Source: an uncultured Bryobacterales bacterium
GTDB lineage: Bacteria > Acidobacteriota > Terriglobia > Bryobacterales > UBA6623
Assembly: GCA_951813065.1 (NCBI GenBank)
Contig: CATOTH010000008.1
Span: forward strand, 62,001 to 126,000
Direction: 5' to 3'
Length of the DNA stretch: 64,000 bases
Position 1 is the first letter of the stretch; every line of letters begins with the position of its first letter. Of the stretch, positions 4,768 to 42,629 are shown in pieces. Both the position numbers and the translations under genes were made by a program. The notes under the pieces were generated by a model that worked only from the letters and a program-made list of their open reading frames with translations, was not told the origin of the DNA and ran no database searches.

Positions 4768-5131
4768 TGCCAGCCTCTTGTTGCAGTTCTAGGCGGGATG
4801 GCGCAAGGCAAAGTAACCAGAGGCCTAGGTTTGGATCATTGTCTCCAAGCCGGCGTTGTCCATATCGGGGTTAGCCGCGAAGGGGGCCTCGTCGGGTAGT
4901 GCCCACTCACGGTTACGCCGGTGGATTCCTTGCGACTCCGGAACCGTGACGAGGACCGCATCCGTTCTGGCCAATGGAGTCCAAGACTCCAGTGCAGCTC
5001 ACAGACCCAGGTCCGGCATCGACATCGAACCATGGCATGATCGCTCGATCAATGCTGAGGCACTCCAGGGAAACCGGGCACTGTACGGCACGGCCACAAA
5101 GATGGTCATGTTGATGACCTAGAATAGGATC
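4768..5131. other. Intergenic stretch without a supportable gene
   Basis: About 360 bases between the agarase-like gene and the VapBC pair. A minus-strand reading frame around 4840-5000 is open but has no start and no family I recognise. It may be debris of an older gene. Confidence 0.4.
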
Positions 5132-5380
5132 ATGATCAAGGTAAACGTTGCCGAGGCAAAGGTGCGACTGTCATCGTGCTTGGATCGAGCGCAGCAGGGG
5201 GAGACGGTCATCATCTGTCGCCGCAACGTGCCGATCGCCGAACTTCGGCCGATTCCTCAGTCGCCAGACAAGCAGCGCCCGACCGGAATTGATCGCGGAA
5301 TGAAGGTCCCTGACAGCTTCTTCGAGCCGCTGCCAGACGATGTGATCGAGGCCTTTGAAGGAACGTCTGAGACAGAATGA
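5132..5380 (+). CDS. Phd/YefM-type antitoxin
   Basis: An 82-residue protein beginning MIKVNVAEAKVRLSSCLDRAQQGETVIICRRN, the DNA-binding N-terminal half typical of Phd/YefM antitoxins (the second half of this stretch holds the QGE and RRN motifs). The acidic C-terminal tail is where such proteins wrap the toxin. The family neutralises its partner and represses its own promoter. Its stop overlaps the next start by 4 bases (ATGA at 5377-5380), the normal arrangement of a toxin-antitoxin operon. ATG 5132 is the only sensible start. Confidence 0.88.
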   Translation: MIKVNVAEAKVRLSSCLDRAQQGETVIICRRNVPIAELRPIPQSPDKQRPTGIDRGMKVPDSFFEPLPDDVIEAFEGTSETE

Positions 5381-5763
5381 CACTATTGGTCGACACCTGC
5401 ACGTTCCTCTGGCTGGCGGCCGACGATCCGAAGCTGTCGGCAACAGCGCGGTCCAGCTGTGTCAGCCCGGAAAACCAGGTCTATCTCAGCGCGCTGTCGG
5501 CGTGGGAGATCGCGGTCAAGTATCGCCTAGGGCGGCTCCCGTTGCCGGTACCGCCCCACGTGTACGTGGAAAGCCGCCGGGAGTGGCTTGGGCTTGCGCC
5601 GCTTGCCCTCGAAGAGAATTGTGCGGTTCACGATGCTCGCCTCCCTCCACTTCACAGGGATCCGTTCGACCGTGGCCTCGTCGCACAGGCAATCTTGCAC
5701 GGCATGACAATCGTCACGCCTGATCCGGCGATTCATGCCTACCCGGCACCGACTCTCTGGTAG
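5377..5763 (+). CDS. PIN-domain toxin, VapC family
   Basis: A 128-residue PIN-domain protein. The metal-binding acidic residues are visible: Asp6 in LLVDTCTFLW, Glu in SAWEIAVKYRLG, Asp in HRDPFDRGLVAQA, and Asp in VTPDPAIHAY. This subfamily (with PLHRDPFDR) normally pairs with Phd-type antitoxins, as here. VapC toxins are Mg2+-dependent ribonucleases that usually cut tRNA or rRNA loops. The gene looks intact and is translationally coupled to the antitoxin. Confidence 0.9.
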   Translation: MTLLVDTCTFLWLAADDPKLSATARSSCVSPENQVYLSALSAWEIAVKYRLGRLPLPVPPHVYVESRREWLGLAPLALEENCAVHDARLPPLHRDPFDRGLVAQAILHGMTIVTPDPAIHAYPAPTLW

Positions 5764-5950
5764 CCCCGAATTGCGGGTCCGGAGCTCGGCACCGGCGATC
5801 CATTTCAACGATTCTCACCACGGGAGACTGACTTGAGTTCGCTGCAAGACAGGGCCCCCGACTCTCGCCGACCCTCGTTTCGTCGCGGGTAGCGCTGACG
5901 CGACTACCGATAGTGCCCGCATCCACTCGGAGATAATTCCGAGTCCCGGA

Positions 5951-5970
5951 TTATTCCGAGCTCGGAATAA
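5951..5970. repeat. Perfect 20-bp palindrome in a convergent intergenic region
   Basis: TTATTCCGAG is followed directly by its reverse complement CTCGGAATAA. A related imperfect inverted repeat (CTCGG at 5926-5930, CCGAG at 5939-5943) lies just upstream. The site is between the 3' ends of the toxin gene and dtd, so it may act as a bidirectional terminator hairpin or a protein-binding site. There is no T-tract. Confidence 0.6.
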
Positions 5971-6024
5971 CGGAGACTGGTACTCGCGCCACCTTCCGCC
6001 GGTGACGAGCACCGTCCGGCGGGA

Positions 6025-6474
6025 TCACAATAGCTTTGTCGAATCCAGCAAGATCGTGACAGGACCTTCGTTTACGAGCGACACTTGCATGTTCGCCCTG
6101 AATACCCCAGTGGCGACGTTCACGTCTACTGCCGCCAGCATCTGGACATACTTCTCGTAGAGCACCTCGGCCAGTTCGGGGCCGGCTGCACTGTCGAAGC
6201 TGGGGCGAAGTCCGCGCCGGACGTCTCCGTATAGAGTAAATTGCGATACCACAAGGACAGCTCCGCCAACGTCCCGGACGGACTGGGTCATCCGACCGTC
6301 CAAGCCTTCGAAGATTCGCAGCCCTGCCGTCTTGCTCGCGAGGTAGGCTGCGTCCTTGTCGGTATCCTCGTGCCCGACGCCCAGAAAGACCAAGAGGCCC
6401 TTCCCGATCCGTCCCGTGCAACGCCCGTCGACGCTTACTTGTGCTGAGTTCACGCGTTGGATGACGGCACGCAA
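6025..6474 (-). CDS. dtd: D-aminoacyl-tRNA deacylase
   Basis: Removes D-amino acids mischarged onto tRNA, and glycine from tRNA-Ala, in the cytoplasm. Both family signatures are present: SQFTLYGD and NEGPVT near the C-terminus. Family members begin M-RAVIQRV; here that point is a TTG codon at 6472-6474, giving 149 residues, the normal length. A longer frame runs up to 6546 but its extra residues match nothing, so TTG is preferred; no clear ribosome-binding site precedes it. It faces the VapBC pair across about 260 bases. Confidence 0.93.
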
Positions 6475-34113: not shown

Positions 34114-34272
34114 GATAGACCATGGGAGGGGACTGAAGCTCCGCGGTGGAATGCGTGTGAACAGGCGGAGGCTCGGTCACGGAGATGGTGGGGGTGGTTG
34201 CGGATTCAGTTTGGAATTGTGCGGATCAGCTCAAGCGAATGCCCATTTCTACGTAAGCATTCAGCTTCCGGG

Positions 34273-36882
34273 GCGCAAGAGGCCGGGAGAGCCGCTCGTG
34301 GGCAGCCCAATGAGGCGCTCGTCTAGCGGGAGCGGGCTGGGCGTTGGGGTGCGAGCAGAAGCGCCTGCCAGTCGCGCTGCAGCGGATACACGAAGACGGC
34401 CTTGGGCGTCTTGGCGGGCACGGCACCCATGGCACCGCGGGCTTGGGTTTGTCCCAGATAGTGCCAGTTCGAGGCCCGGTAGCAGGTGCCGGCGTAGGGC
34501 TGGCTGACATACGTCTCCGCCAGCACCGGCCGGACGCCATGCTGGTGCTGCCAGTCGGCGGCCAGTTGGCGCAAGCTCAGCCCCAGCGCCTTCGAGGCTA
34601 GGCATTTTACGCGCACCCAGGGAAACAAAAGGAAGCGGGCTTGGCGCACCACCCGCTCCAGCGGACGGCTGGGCTGGTCCTGCCAGCCGATCCAGCGGTC
34701 GCGCACCGGCAGGTAGCGGGCGGCGAAATCGTACAGCAGGCAGCCCAGCAGGCGTTGCTGGCGGTCTTCGAGGAAGTAGCGCAGGTGGCAGCCGATGGGC
34801 TGGCGATAGCCCAGGGGGTGGTAGCGTTCCAGGAATTCGTTCCACAGGCCAGCCTCAGCGCGCTCGCTGACGAGCCGCAAGCGCAGCGGCTCGAGCTGCG
34901 CCAGGGGGCCCTCCAGCGGGGCTTGGGGCGCGCTGCGCTGGCCCAGCGAGAGGGGCGCTTGGCGGCCCCGTTCGGGGCCTTTGCGGGCCGGCAGGGCTAG
35001 GATCGAGAGCCGTTCGAGTTCCTCCAGCACGCGCATCGCCAGCTGAATGCGGTTGCTGCCGCGAGGGGTCTGCCAGCCCAGGTGCTGGCAGACGGTGTGG
35101 CCCAGTTCGGTGCGGCTGAGCAGGGGCAAGCTGGTGACGATCTCTTGGATGTCCGCGATCTGGCTGCGGCGCAGGTGCTGTCCGCACAAGCTGGTCGAGG
35201 CCAGCCGCGCGATGCGCGGGTCCAGATCGGCGCTCGCCATTCAGGCCGCCTTGCCTAGCTCGCCGTCCGCGCTGTTGGCGACAGGCGGGATCCACTCCGT
35301 CGGGGCCTTGCTGAGTTGCTCCCGACGCTGCTCGCTGAGGCGCCACGGCAGCCAGGCAGCCAGCTCTTGCGGGGCCTGGTTGCCGTTGCGCGCACAGGCC
35401 GCCAGCCAGTCCAGCATCCAGGTATACGGGTTCAGGCCTGCCAGCCGCACGGTCGCCAGCACCCCGAACAGCAGGCCCGCCGCTCGCGCGCCGTCCGGCC
35501 CGCCCGAGCCGAAGCTGGTGTAGCGGGCGATGACCGGCCCCCGCAGGACCCGCTCCGACGCATTGTTGTCGAGCGGGATGCGCGGATCGGCCACAAAGCG
35601 GCTCAGCGATACGCGGTGACTCTGCAAGGTCGCCAAGGCCCGGCCTTGCGCAGCCAGGCGGGCCAGCTCGGCACCCTGTCGGCCGTGGCCCTGCTGGTCG
35701 AGCCGCAGCCACTCGCGCGCGCACTCCGCGCCCTCTTCCCGGGCGCGCTCGAACAACTCTTGCACGCGCGTTTGCAACTGCTGCTGGATCTGTTGGAACG
35801 GCCTGCCTTGCGCCTCCAGCGGTTGCTGCCGATCCCACTGCTGGAGCCGCTCTCGGTTCAGTCGGAACACTGCGCCGATGCGCTCCACCCACTCCTCGGC
35901 CCACTCCTTGCAGTCCGCGTGACCGGTGCCCACGCGCACAAAATTTCTCCGCATGTGCGCCCAACAATGGCCTAGCACCACGCCCCCGGGATACTGCTTG
36001 GCAAACGCCTTGCACGTGCTGTAGCAGTCACACACCAGCACGCTCAACCCGCTCTGGCCGACCAACGCAGCCAGCCATTGGCAGGCCGAGTCCAGGCCCC
36101 GGGTCGGCAGGATCCGCATGCGTACCGTGTTGCCGGCCAGACAGGCCCACAGCCAAAACTTCGGCTTCTGTCGCCCGCGCTCGGGCGGGTCCTTGTTGTC
36201 GTCCTCGCCCTCCGCCAGCCACTGCACCGGCCAGGAGGTCTCGTCCGCCTGGGCCACCGGCTGCTGCTGTTGGTACTCCCCGATCGCCGCCTCCAGCGGC
36301 GCGAAAAGATCTGCCAGCCGCCGCAGTCCCGCCGACAGCGTCGACGGCGGCACGCGCAGCCCCAGGTCTGCCAGATCGCGGGCCACCGCCGCCTGCGGGC
36401 GGAACAGCCCGTAGACCTGGATCAGACACCAGGCCCACACACTGGTGCCCAACTGGCTGGTGCCTAGCCGGGCCACCGGCGGGGCGCTCACTGGCCGCGC
36501 TGAGCCACAGTCGCAGCCCGGACGATAGCGCCAGCGCAGCACCTTGCGTGCCAGCGCCTTGTAGGCCATCTCGTACAGCCAACTGATCTTGTACCCGCAC
36601 GCTACGTAGGCGGTGCCGCAGTCCGCACAGCGGCGCTGCTGCGCGGGCACGTCCAGCCACTCGAACACCACCGGCAGGCCGGGCCGCCGCTCGCGCGGCG
36701 GGGTCGGCGAACCCGGTTGCCGTCCGCGTTTCCTGCGCGGCCGGTCCGCCGCAGCCTTGCTCGCGGGCTGCTCCGGCGCGGGCGTGTCGGCGACCGCGGG
36801 CGTGTCGGCCGAGCCCTCGGCGGAGACTCCGTCCGGCGCGGACGGCTCATCCCCGCCCGCTGGCGTGGTCTCGCTCTTGCGC
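34273..36882 (-). mobile_element. IS66-type element carrying a DruA-like gene; ends uncertain
   Basis: Two minus-strand genes with no gap, an IS66 transposase then a DUF4338 protein. At the right edge, amidohydrolase coding sequence resumes near 36883. GCGCAAGAG at 34273-34281 and its complement CTCTTGCGC at 36874-36882 could be the inner core of terminal repeats, but only 9 bases match and no target duplication is seen. The transposase lacks the usual N-terminal coiled-coil segment and there is no tnpA or tnpB, so this is either a single-tnp IS66 subtype or a truncated copy. Confidence 0.6.
34323..35240 (-). CDS. DruA/DUF4338 family protein
   Basis: A 305-residue protein with the DUF4338 signature: LWNEFLERYHPLGYRQPIGCHLRYFL, FAARYLPVRDRWIGWQ, RFLLFPWVRVKCLASKALGL and ETYVSQPYAGTCYRASNWHYLGQT. 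DUF4338 is the DruA component of Druantia anti-phage systems, but the domain also occurs next to IS66 transposases. Its ATG (35238-35240) follows the transposase stop with no base between (TGA-ATG), so translation is coupled. No other Druantia genes (druE helicase etc.) are present; a role in transposition is more likely than stand-alone defence. Confidence 0.85.
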   Translation of the reverse strand: MASADLDPRIARLASTSLCGQHLRRSQIADIQEIVTSLPLLSRTELGHTVCQHLGWQTPRGSNRIQLAMRVLEELERLSILALPARKGPERGRQAPLSLGQRSAPQAPLEGPLAQLEPLRLRLVSERAEAGLWNEFLERYHPLGYRQPIGCHLRYFLEDRQQRLLGCLLYDFAARYLPVRDRWIGWQDQPSRPLERVVRQARFLLFPWVRVKCLASKALGLSLRQLAADWQHQHGVRPVLAETYVSQPYAGTCYRASNWHYLGQTQARGAMGAVPAKTPKAVFVYPLQRDWQALLLAPQRPARSR

Positions 36883-37001
36883 AAGATGACCGTGATGCCG
36901 GCAAAGCGCTTGGAGAAGCGTCTCCCCGAAATGCGGAACAAGGGCCGCATCCGAGCGGGGGCAGACGCCGACATCGTGGTGTTCGATCCGCAGACTGTCA
37001 T
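35241..37001 (-). CDS. IS66-family transposase (TnpC type)
   Basis: Contains the IS66 zinc-finger region (RRCADCGTAYVACGYK), the DDE core (ADETSWPVQWLAEGE, VLVCDCYSTCKAF with GHCWAHMRRNF) and the C-terminal IPLDNNASERVLRGPVIARY. About 545 residues are meaningful. The open frame reaches 37001, but its first 40 or so codons run antisense through amidohydrolase sequence and there is no ATG or well-placed GTG inside the element, so the true start is uncertain and the 5' end may be lost. Catalytic region looks intact. Confidence 0.88.
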   Translation of the reverse strand: MTVCGSNTTMSASAPARMRPLFRISGRRFSKRFAGITVILRKSETTPAGGDEPSAPDGVSAEGSADTPAVADTPAPEQPASKAAADRPRRKRGRQPGSPTPPRERRPGLPVVFEWLDVPAQQRRCADCGTAYVACGYKISWLYEMAYKALARKVLRWRYRPGCDCGSARPVSAPPVARLGTSQLGTSVWAWCLIQVYGLFRPQAAVARDLADLGLRVPPSTLSAGLRRLADLFAPLEAAIGEYQQQQPVAQADETSWPVQWLAEGEDDNKDPPERGRQKPKFWLWACLAGNTVRMRILPTRGLDSACQWLAALVGQSGLSVLVCDCYSTCKAFAKQYPGGVVLGHCWAHMRRNFVRVGTGHADCKEWAEEWVERIGAVFRLNRERLQQWDRQQPLEAQGRPFQQIQQQLQTRVQELFERAREEGAECAREWLRLDQQGHGRQGAELARLAAQGRALATLQSHRVSLSRFVADPRIPLDNNASERVLRGPVIARYTSFGSGGPDGARAAGLLFGVLATVRLAGLNPYTWMLDWLAACARNGNQAPQELAAWLPWRLSEQRREQLSKAPTEWIPPVANSADGELGKAA

Positions 37002-37185
37002 CGATCGCGGAACCTATGCAGATCCGGCACGGAGCCCGCAAGGCATCCGGCACGTTATCGTGAACGGCACGCCCGTCTTGGTCGACGGCCAACTGCTTGA
37101 CAGTGCCAGGCCTGGTCGAGCGGTGCGGGCCAAGCGCTCTTACCCGTTCGCACCGGGAACTACTTGGAGCCGCCCGGGACAATAA
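36883..37185 (+). pseudogene. Amidohydrolase/D-aminoacylase family, C-terminal remnant
   Basis: Open frame KMTVMPAKRLEKRLPEMRNK followed by GRIRAGADADIVVFDPQTVIDRGTYADP and IRHVIVNGTPVLVDGQL, the last 100 residues of N-acyl-D-amino-acid deacylase/dihydroorotase-type amidohydrolases. Everything upstream, including the metal-binding barrel, is replaced by the IS66-type element, and no N-terminal part exists on the far side of the element. The gene is therefore truncated by insertion plus deletion. Confidence 0.85.
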
Positions 37186-40669: not shown

Positions 40670-42629
40670 CCTAACTTACCCGCCCAGAAAATAGACGGTA
40701 GGGCCTAACAGCTGTTGAAGCAACTGCTTAGCGTCGGATCTGGCAATTTTGTGTACCCATGTAATTTGATTGTTGACTTCCTGTATTACAATTTGATAGT
40801 GTTCGTTTAGTAGCCATGTACATCGAGTCCGTCCCCAACCGCAACTCGCCCCCGGCCGTCCTCCTCCGCGAGTCCTTCCGCGTCGGCTCCAAGGTCCGCA
40901 AGCGCACCATCCTCAACCTCTCCAAGTGGCCCCCGGACCTCGTCGAGGGCCTCCGCACTCTGCTCAAGGGCGGCACTGCCGTCGCCAACCTTCAGGACTA
41001 TTTCGCCATCGTCCGCTCCCGCCCCCACGGCCATGTCGCCGCCGTCCTCGGCTCCCTCCGCTCTCTCGGCCTCGACTCCCTCATCGATCCCAGCCCCTCC
41101 CGCTCCCGCTCCCTCGCCATGGCCCTCGTCGTCTCGCGCATCCTCCAGCCGCGCTCCAAGCTCGCCACCTCCCGCTGCCTCGACCCCGCCTCCCTGGCCC
41201 ACTCCCTCGGCGACGAACTCCAGCTCGGCCACCCCGATGCCGACGACCTCTATGCCGCCATGGACTGGCTCCTGCCCCGCCAGCACGCCATCGAGCAGGC
41301 CCTCGCCAAACGCCATCTCAGCGACGCCTCCCTTGTCCTCGCCGACGTCACCTCCACCTACCTCGAGGGCTCCCACTGCCCCCTCGCCGCCCGCGGCCAT
41401 TCCCGCGACGGCAAGCGCGGCAAGCTCCAGATCGTCTTCTCCCTGCTGTGCAACCGTGACGGCTGCCCCGTCGCCGTCCAGGTCTTCCCCGGCAACACCG
41501 CCGATCCCGCCACCGTCGGCCCCCAGCTCGACACCCTGCGGCGCCGCTTCGGCCGCGCCCGCCTGGTGGTCGTCGGCGACCGCGGCCTGCTCACCGAGGC
41601 CCGCATCCGCGACGAACTGCGCCCCGCCGGCCTCGACTGGATCTCCGCCTTGCGCGCCCCCGCCATCCGCGAACTCGCCCGCCAGGGCGCCTTCCAAATG
41701 TCCCTCTTCGACCACCAGGACCTCGCCGCAATCACTTCCCCGGACTATCCCGGCGAGCGTCTGCTGCTGTGCCGCAACCCCCTGCTGGCCGCCAAGCGCG
41801 CCCGCCAGCGCGAGGCCCTGCTGGCAGCCACCGAGAAACTGCTCGACCCGATCGTCGCCGCCACCCAGCGCACCCAGCGGCCCCTGCGCCGCGCCGCCAG
41901 CATCGGCCTCCGGGTCGGCAAGGTCGTCTCCAAGTTCAAGGTGCGCAAGCATTTCGAACTGACCATCGAGGAGGGCCACTTCGACTACCGCCGCAACCAA
42001 GCCGGCATCGACGCCGAGGCGGCCCTGGACGGCCTCTACGTGGTCCGCACCAGCGTGGCGGTCGAGGAGCTCGGGCCGGCCGATGCCGTGCGCACCTACA
42101 AGAGCCTCAGCGCCGTCGAGCGCGCCTTCCGCAGCTTCAAGACGGTGGACCTGAAGGTCCGCCCGATCTACCACTACCTCGAGGACCGCGTGCGCGCCCA
42201 CGTGCTCGTCTGCATGCTGGCTTACTACGTCGAGTGGCACATGCAGCGGCGGCTCGCCCCGCTGCTGTTCAAGGACGCCGATCCGGACGCGGCGCAAGCC
42301 GCGCGGGAGTCGGTGGTGCAGCCCGCGCAAGTCTCGCCGGAGGCCCGCGCCAAGGCACGCACCCAGCGCACTGCCGCCGGCGAACCGGTCCATAGCTTCC
42401 AAACCCTGCTGGCCGACCTGGCGACGATTGTCAAGAATCGCATCCAGCCCCATGGCGGAGGCAAACCGTTCGACATGCTCACGCGACCGACGGAATTGCA
42501 GCGCAAGGCGCTCGAACTGCTCGGAGTCAGCCTGACCTGTACCCAGTAAATCTCCAGCTGCGAAATCCTAAATCGCTGAAACTACGAGAGAAACCAAGAG
42601 CCCGACTATTTTCTGGAGGGTAAGTTAGG
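40670..42629 (+). mobile_element. IS1634-family insertion sequence, complete
   Basis: A 1.96-kb element. Both ends begin CCTAACTTACCC and continue with CCAGAAAATAG (one 1-base indel between the two arms). TCTAAC at 40664-40669 and 42630-42635 is a 6-bp target duplication. It carries a single full-length transposase and lies downstream of the sulfatase without breaking a gene. Confidence 0.9.
40816..42549 (+). CDS. IS1634-family transposase
   Basis: A 577-residue DDE transposase of the IS4-like clan. Key segments: LVLADVTSTYLEG (first Asp), GCPVAVQVFPGNTADPATV, LVVVGDRGLLTEARI (second Asp), and YKSLSAVERAFRSFKTVDLKVRP with the catalytic Glu, then YHYLEDRVRAHVLVCMLAYYVEWHM. Length and ends are normal and no frameshift is seen. 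Its codon bias toward C-ending triplets is stronger than that of neighbours, so a long antisense frame also stays open; that frame is an artefact. Confidence 0.94.
   Translation: MYIESVPNRNSPPAVLLRESFRVGSKVRKRTILNLSKWPPDLVEGLRTLLKGGTAVANLQDYFAIVRSRPHGHVAAVLGSLRSLGLDSLIDPSPSRSRSLAMALVVSRILQPRSKLATSRCLDPASLAHSLGDELQLGHPDADDLYAAMDWLLPRQHAIEQALAKRHLSDASLVLADVTSTYLEGSHCPLAARGHSRDGKRGKLQIVFSLLCNRDGCPVAVQVFPGNTADPATVGPQLDTLRRRFGRARLVVVGDRGLLTEARIRDELRPAGLDWISALRAPAIRELARQGAFQMSLFDHQDLAAITSPDYPGERLLLCRNPLLAAKRARQREALLAATEKLLDPIVAATQRTQRPLRRAASIGLRVGKVVSKFKVRKHFELTIEEGHFDYRRNQAGIDAEAALDGLYVVRTSVAVEELGPADAVRTYKSLSAVERAFRSFKTVDLKVRPIYHYLEDRVRAHVLVCMLAYYVEWHMQRRLAPLLFKDADPDAAQAARESVVQPAQVSPEARAKARTQRTAAGEPVHSFQTLLADLATIVKNRIQPHGGGKPFDMLTRPTELQRKALELLGVSLTCTQ

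Follow-up and report, generated by a model that had tools for sequence, protein, structure and literature searches.

Does a DruA protein encoded next to a transposase gene belong to a defence locus, or is it part of the transposon? The question is raised by a DruA (DUF4338) gene in a 64,000-nucleotide stretch of DNA from an uncultured Bryobacterales bacterium (contig CATOTH010000008.1, positions 62,001 to 126,000; hereafter the window), where it directly follows the gene of an IS66-type transposase, TnpC. So far DruA has counted as a defence protein whose activity is unknown; in the genomes analysed here it mostly occurs as part of transposons. The window pair comes from a damaged IS66-type transposon copy, of which druA is an integral gene, co-translated with tnpC. 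As for its function, I propose that DruA may be a Mom-type DNA modifier coupled to DDE transposases, a reading to which fold and sequence comparisons give an evenly balanced chance of being right.

The window pair and its intact relatives

The features of the damaged copy, in window coordinates, are as follows.

34253..34276, no strand: left terminal inverted repeat, GTAAGCATTCAG; 22/24 bases match the intact copies.
34323-35240, minus strand: DruA/DUF4338 gene, 305 aa; PF14236 at 104 bits, in-frame TGA-ATG junction, dN/dS (ratio of nonsynonymous to synonymous substitution rates) of 0.25 against the intact copy L003.
35241..36881, minus strand: IS66 transposase TnpC, N-terminus missing; PF03050, NF033517; no likeness to the intact copies beyond 36881.
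36871..36881, no strand: junction and probable deletion point, CTCTTGCG; these bases are common to IS66 and amidohydrolase sequence.
36871..37134, plus strand: C-terminal remnant of a PRK09061-like amidohydrolase; NF006560 at 120.8 bits, positions 427-514 of 517.

Complete copies of the element are found elsewhere in the same genome (L002, L003 and L004). Each is 3518 bp long, the three are 99.9-100% alike, and all of them start with GTAAGC, finish with GCTTAC and carry druA inside. Exact 8-bp target duplications flank them (TTTCGTTG, AGTCCGTC and GTTCGAGA). IS66 is defined by GTAAGC-type inverted ends and an 8-bp target duplication; both are present in 3/3 intact copies, while the window copy keeps the left end only. 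Fragments of further copies begin contigs C3, C6 and C7. No open reading frame (ORF) resembling tnpB or tnpA was recognised in the 3518-bp element when its ORFs were read by eye, without a family scan; these helper genes are missing from some IS66 subgroups. Inverted repeats of about 465 bp, 89% identical, are present in all three intact copies; in L003 (1055-4572) they take in the start of tnpC, and the window copy lacks them.

Family scores confirm the assignment of the two window genes: the DruA match to PF14236 (104 bits, gathering cut-off 27) covers positions 31-224 of 297, and the 586-aa ORF at 35241-37001 on the minus strand matches PF03050 at 119 bits and NCBIfam NF033517 at 196 bits (cut-off 180). 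The TGA stop of tnpC is followed without a gap by the ATG of druA, both in one frame, so that readthrough of the stop codon would give a TnpC-DruA fusion. The same TGA-ATG meeting is found in the three complete copies (checked in L003).

The window copy is damaged on the tnpC side. Its likeness to the other copies in the genome breaks off at 36881, so codons 1-40 of the 586-aa ORF, which lie antisense to the amidohydrolase remnant, are not transposase. Missing are the right end and the true N-terminus of TnpC (about 60-67 residues); the left end is preserved 70 bp past the DruA stop. Since IS66 sequence and amidohydrolase remnant overlap in CTCTTGCG, a deletion between short matching sequences is suggested as the origin of the junction. 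Between window copy and L003, dN/dS is 0.25 for DruA and 0.59 for TnpC, the former value indicating that DruA has been under purifying selection.

Druantia is defined by DruA together with partners DruB-E or DruE. No such partner stands beside the window gene: a PADLOC scan matched 0/6 neighbouring proteins, and PADLOC's own DruA models do not match the window DruA. On these points a first-pass annotation of the locus, made from the sequence alone, is borne out, having described the TGA-ATG layout and the lack of Druantia partners. The span it gave the pair, 34323-37001, holds for the gene positions but not for the first 40 ORF codons, and the element reaches to 34253. It had left to be settled whether the element ends enclose DruA, as they do in the 3518-bp copies, and whether other IS66-DUF4338 pairs exist, as they do in many phyla. 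Elsewhere in the window, at 40816-42549, lies an IS1634 family transposase (NF033559, 326 bits).

DruA and its transposase partners

The window's genome contains 32 PF14236 matches (31 above cut-off), all 32 in a transposase context: 6 IS66, 14 Tn5/IS4-like and 12 ISAs1-like, several of them truncated, with truncated and related copies assigned by likeness to Pfam-scanned ones. Two of the six IS66-type cases are contig-edge pieces finishing in IS66 end sequence. In the Tn5-like and ISAs1-like types DruA and transposase are one polypeptide with DruA at the N-terminus, the order being DruA, Tnp_DNA_bind, DDE_Tnp_1 and Dimer_Tnp_Tn5 (the last below the Pfam cut-off) in the former and DruA, DDE_Tnp_1_assoc and DDE_Tnp_1 in the latter. 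The ISAs1-type fusions keep the GNAT part of DruA, without its winged-helix part. Exact target duplications were found for 18 of the 19 DruA elements examined in this genome, across three classes (Tn5-like 5/5, 8 bp; ISAs1-like 10/11, 10 bp, the eleventh being truncated; IS66 3/3). DruA thus resides inside transposons.

The association extends well beyond this genome. PF14236 matches occur in 27 of 297 genomes of the window's phylum (above cut-off in 26) and in 35 of 247 genomes from the phylum to which Desulfosarcina widdelii belongs (above cut-off in 34). A transposase was fused or within 1.5 kb at 35/45 and 30/49 classified matches, respectively (65/94 pooled), and none was recognised at 10/45 and 19/49. 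These calls rest on similarity to one of 25 reference transposases, nearly all Pfam-checked, and because this set is small the adjacency rates are lower bounds. A scan of genome contigs gave 80 loci from many phyla, with at least 570 confirmed stretches; among the matches listed, 47/80 have a transposase fused or within 1.5 kb, as against 1/69 control genes on these contigs at a distance of more than 2.5 kb.

At least seven transposase types partner DruA. Those named by Pfam are PF03050 (IS66), PF13808/PF01609 (ISAs1-like), PF14706/PF02281 (Tn5-like), PF14104 (IS1634-like), PF06782 (UPF0236, which I take to be ISLre2-like), PF13546 (DDE_5, presumably IS701-like), PF05598 (DUF772) and other DDE_Tnp_1 proteins. 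Fusions are of the Tn5-like, ISAs1-like, DDE_5, DDE_Tnp_1 and DUF4277 types; the last is seen in an 870-aa protein, DruA joined to an IS1634-type (DUF4277) transposase (L285:2387-4996). Where the genes are adjacent (n=92), a transposase on the same strand follows DruA in 63 cases and precedes it in 25; one pair has opposite strands, and 3 show other arrangements. Many pairs touch or overlap by 4 nt (for instance L095, L111, L120, L168, L172, L175 and L184), with start codons assigned mechanically. In L095, L098, L104 and L223, DruA stands between tnpB (PF05717) and tnpC, and tnpB was found in 5/5 IS66-DruA elements scanned from other genomes.

Multiple copies in single genomes are not peculiar to the window's bacterium: Desulfoferrobacter suflitae, with 13 DruA matches, has an IS66-DruA element of the type with DruA between tnpB and tnpC in three identical copies, as well as a DruA-ISAs1 element in four. 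In a DruA-ISAs1 element with four near-identical copies (L219:2124-3910) two overlapping frames encode the transposase between them, and a programmed frameshift is possible there. A 2490-bp IS66-DruA element with perfect 22-bp ends (L278) has no 8-bp duplication. A query with the last 205 residues of the window DruA found no relative among 50,697 phage records. Plasmid matches came from two records of one organism, which label the copies 'ISAs1 family transposase' and 'DUF4338 domain-containing protein'.

Within the mobile DruA of the tree the Tn5-like fusions form one clade (97, a starred branch). IS66 and ISAs1 partners change several times, and starred branches force at least nine changes for each; partner transposases were therefore swapped repeatedly. 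DruA genes without a recognised transposase are scattered throughout (28 changes) and are therefore not one group. Around 38 loci that had no transposase assigned at that stage, inverted repeats and target duplications were sought, and L140 alone was convincing: a lone DruA in a 1299-bp element (4846-6144) flanked by a 9-bp duplication, ACTATTTGT, and with inverted ends matching at 13/14 bases. The same genome has further copies of the right end of this element (82 bp, 99%), beside which no transposase was found, and a transposase acting in trans is likely to move the element, which resembles a 'mobile insertion cassette'. L126 has perfect 14-base repeats and a weak duplication; the best matches at the remaining loci look like chance and were rejected. 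Some solo genes have neighbours common to related genomes (L117 and L123 in Desulfosarcina, L150 and L177 in Geobacter/Geobacteraceae), and these may be stable, domesticated chromosomal genes.

The DruA fold and its likeness to Mom

An AlphaFold2 model of DruA built with 83 relatives (mean pLDDT 90.8, pTM 0.79, the program's confidence scores) has two domains.

35013..35171, minus strand: N-terminal three-helix domain, residues 24-76, read as winged-helix/helix-turn-helix (HTH) and DNA-binding from the AlphaFold2 model and weak PaaX and HTH matches.
34368..34904, minus strand: Mom-like GNAT domain, residues 113-291, with H140, R201, S215, Y253 and N257; VIA-align, hhalign and Pfam Mom.

The PaaX and HTH matches are weak and come from few members, and the N-terminal domain is read as winged-helix-like, with DNA binding as its predicted function. 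In structure searches with VIA-align, phage Mu Mom (8bv8) tops the results for both DruA models, with Z of 13.6 and 14.8 (runners-up 11.5 and 13.3); the second match extends over 164 residues at 3.5 Å and 15% identity. Of the 19 families listed in the Pfam scan of the 83 DruA, Mom (PF25680) is the sole GNAT family; 60/83 DruA match it with E values of 1 or less, the best being 2.2e-6. A profile of 10 phage Mom proteins aligned with the DruA profile by hhalign over 173 columns (E 1.1e-8, score 64.5), while the maximum for 30 column-shuffled Mom profiles was 23.2 (E 0.017 for the best shuffle) and the reversed profile scored 17.2. Profile comparison thus shows DruA to be a homologue of Mom. Matches of DruA profiles to the hemophore IsdB among PDB sequences (E 0.04-0.6), short and of unrelated function, were put down to chance.

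The register of the two families is informative as to the active site. In the hhalign alignment DruA S215 falls on Mom S124 and R201 on R111, and in the motif register DruA H140, Y253, N257 and G262 fall on Mom H58, Y159, N163 and G168. H140, R201, E241, Y253, N257 and G262 are invariant in 83 aligned DruA, and the position of S124, the catalytic serine of Mom, is serine in 82/83 and threonine in one. The title of PDB entry 8bv8 describes S124A as an inactive mutant, and its chain is named 'Methylcarbamoylase mom'. DUF4338 is termed a GNAT domain in a paper of 2024 (PMC10853773), and Mom is described as a GNAT enzyme modifying N6 of adenine in one of 2021 (PMC7824862); PMC8670742 makes no mention of Mom. 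My literature search, which did not extend to IS (insertion sequence) databases, returned no paper pairing DruA with a transposase, IS66, the IS4 family or GNAT.

Several results pull the other way, against a Mom-type modifier coupled to transposases. With the better model Mom leads the next VIA-align match by 1.5 Z, and Foldseek E-values rank generic GNATs at the top, Mom not being among the best 50 matches. The Mom cut-off of 27.1 bits is reached by no DruA score seen (best 24.5; 14.9 for the window DruA). Profiles of 10 or 83 DruA fail to find 8bv8 by sequence alone, the hhalign probability of DruA against Mu Mom alone is 1.9, and the chemistry of DruA is not readable from sequence. As to the coupling, no transposase was recognised at 33/80 loci among the matches listed. 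A second IS66 element in the window's genome, 2564 bp long, lacks DruA and is present in three identical copies (L072, L073 and L074); DruA is therefore dispensable for IS66 as such.

Proposed role, origin and comparison with known systems

In the proposed mechanism, DruA is a widespread accessory module of DDE transposons, a winged helix with a Mom-like GNAT domain, whose gene touches that of the transposase or is fused to it. Kept on the element or its target by the DNA-binding domain and the transposase, DruA would modify a DNA base with a small group of acyl or carbamoylmethyl type, just as adenine is modified by Mu Mom. Such a mark would either protect the element from host nucleases while it moves, or govern the place and time of its movement. 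The fusion of DruA to transposases argues that its activity is needed at the site of transposase binding. Mom shields Mu, itself a transposing element with a DDE transposase, from restriction, and protection is therefore suggested for DruA; control of the target and modification of a protein are further possibilities. Catalysis, DNA as the substrate, the identity of the group and the benefit to the element all belong to this conditional scheme.

That an insertion sequence merely landed beside a druA gene is compatible with the window copy taken alone and with the 33/80 loci, among the matches listed, that lack a recognised transposase; it is refuted by the presence of DruA within exact target duplications in 18/19 elements, the control rate of 1/69 also counts against it, and its probability is negligible. 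Given a place inside transposons, DruA could be a passenger, an anti-restriction or defence gene without part in the movement of the element. Mom's protection of Mu, the use of DruA in defence by Druantia and the DruA-less IS66 copies of the same genome speak for this idea; yet cargo need not be fused, whereas DruA has repeatedly been fused into the transposase polypeptide and shares stop-start overlaps with its gene. I regard a pure passenger as decidedly improbable, while noting that the two readings overlap, a protective mark being both.

Participation in transposition could also take a form other than DNA modification. DruA might be a protein acyltransferase that regulates transposition by acting on the transposase or a host DNA-binding protein: most members of the GNAT fold modify amines of proteins or small molecules, and DruA adjoins or is fused to transposases. 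Against it, Mom, a DNA modifier, is what sequence profiles pick among the Pfam GNAT families, with shuffled controls in hhalign, and the protein has an N-terminal DNA-binding-like domain, so that I consider an acyltransferase of this kind unlikely. That same winged-helix-like domain would suit a non-catalytic adaptor choosing targets or bridging transposon ends, accessory DNA-binding proteins being common among transposons, and IS66 does have small helper genes, with DruA often between tnpB and tnpC. An adaptor would hardly call for the enzyme-like conservation of H140, R201, E241, Y253 and N257 (invariant) and S215 (82/83), and the ISAs1-type fusions retain the GNAT part without the winged helix; it seems to me no likelier than the acyltransferase. 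A Mom-type DNA modifier coupled to the transposase remains the reading that I prefer.

How does the DruA of defence systems relate to the mobile form? In an unrooted tree eight full-length DruA form one clade (100, a starred branch) on a long branch. Three members were scanned: L217 sits with DruD, L216 has both NurA- and HerA-like neighbours, and L218 has a HerA-like one. For the remaining five the label defence-like follows from the clade only. In L216 (8726-12855) and L218 (8754-13200) the defence-type DruA is followed by NurA-/HerA-like genes, which are not usual Druantia partners. Mobile and defence DruA are homologous, their profiles matching in hhalign (E 3.9e-12), but the HYLG, LAS and GTCYRAANW motifs and the Mom-like serine are absent from the defence proteins, and direct comparison of the eight with Mom revealed no likeness (score 20.4). 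Because Mom and mobile DruA share these motifs, it is simpler to suppose that the defence clade lost them. The motif pattern lends some polarity to the idea that defence took over DruA from an ancestor that was mobile or Mom-like; it fits this idea without proving it, given the unrooted tree and the long branch.

The first-pass annotation had proposed an ancestral role of DUF4338 in transposition, possibly as a nuclease, with later recruitment by defence. On the evidence of fold and family, a winged helix with a Mom-like GNAT domain, I reject the nuclease. Residence in transposons of many types is confirmed, the ancestral role is not; recruitment accords with motifs common to Mom and mobile DruA and absent from the defence clade, short of proof. 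The phylogenetic comparison that it had suggested does separate defence DruA as a long-branch clade, in a tree that is unrooted. A broader and more tentative proposal, to which I give somewhat less than an even chance, is that Mom-type enzymes were repeatedly built into unrelated DDE transposons, marking their own or their target DNA, and that Druantia DruA descends from them with its active site lost.

In practical terms, annotation of defence genes by DUF4338 alone would mislabel many transposons. The hypothesis of a Mom-like activity involving serine 215 also offers a reason why Druantia DruA may differ. Were the proposal true, a base-modifying domain fused to transposases would constitute a new route for insertion sequences to counter host nucleases or to control their target, and mobile DruA would be the missing link between Mu Mom and a major defence protein.

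Three known systems provide the terms of comparison. With the IS66 family the window element shares a TnpC with PF03050, GTAAGC-type ends and the 8-bp duplication; it differs by the extra druA gene inside the element, placed after tnpC in its own genome and between tnpB and tnpC elsewhere, where tnpB (PF05717) and a tnpA-like gene accompany IS66-DruA elements. Phage Mu Mom (PF25680; 8bv8) has in common with DruA the GNAT fold and the motif register of H, R, S124, Y159, N163 and G168, and Mu too is a transposing element with a DDE transposase; by contrast, DruA adds the N-terminal three-helix domain, is joined to or co-translated with insertion sequence transposases, and scores below the Pfam Mom cut-off. 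Finally, the DruA of Druantia and of the NurA/HerA-type loci belongs to the same PF14236 family as mobile DruA, but forms the long-branch clade without the Mom-like serine, HYLG and GTCYRAANW, and is found beside DruD or NurA/HerA.

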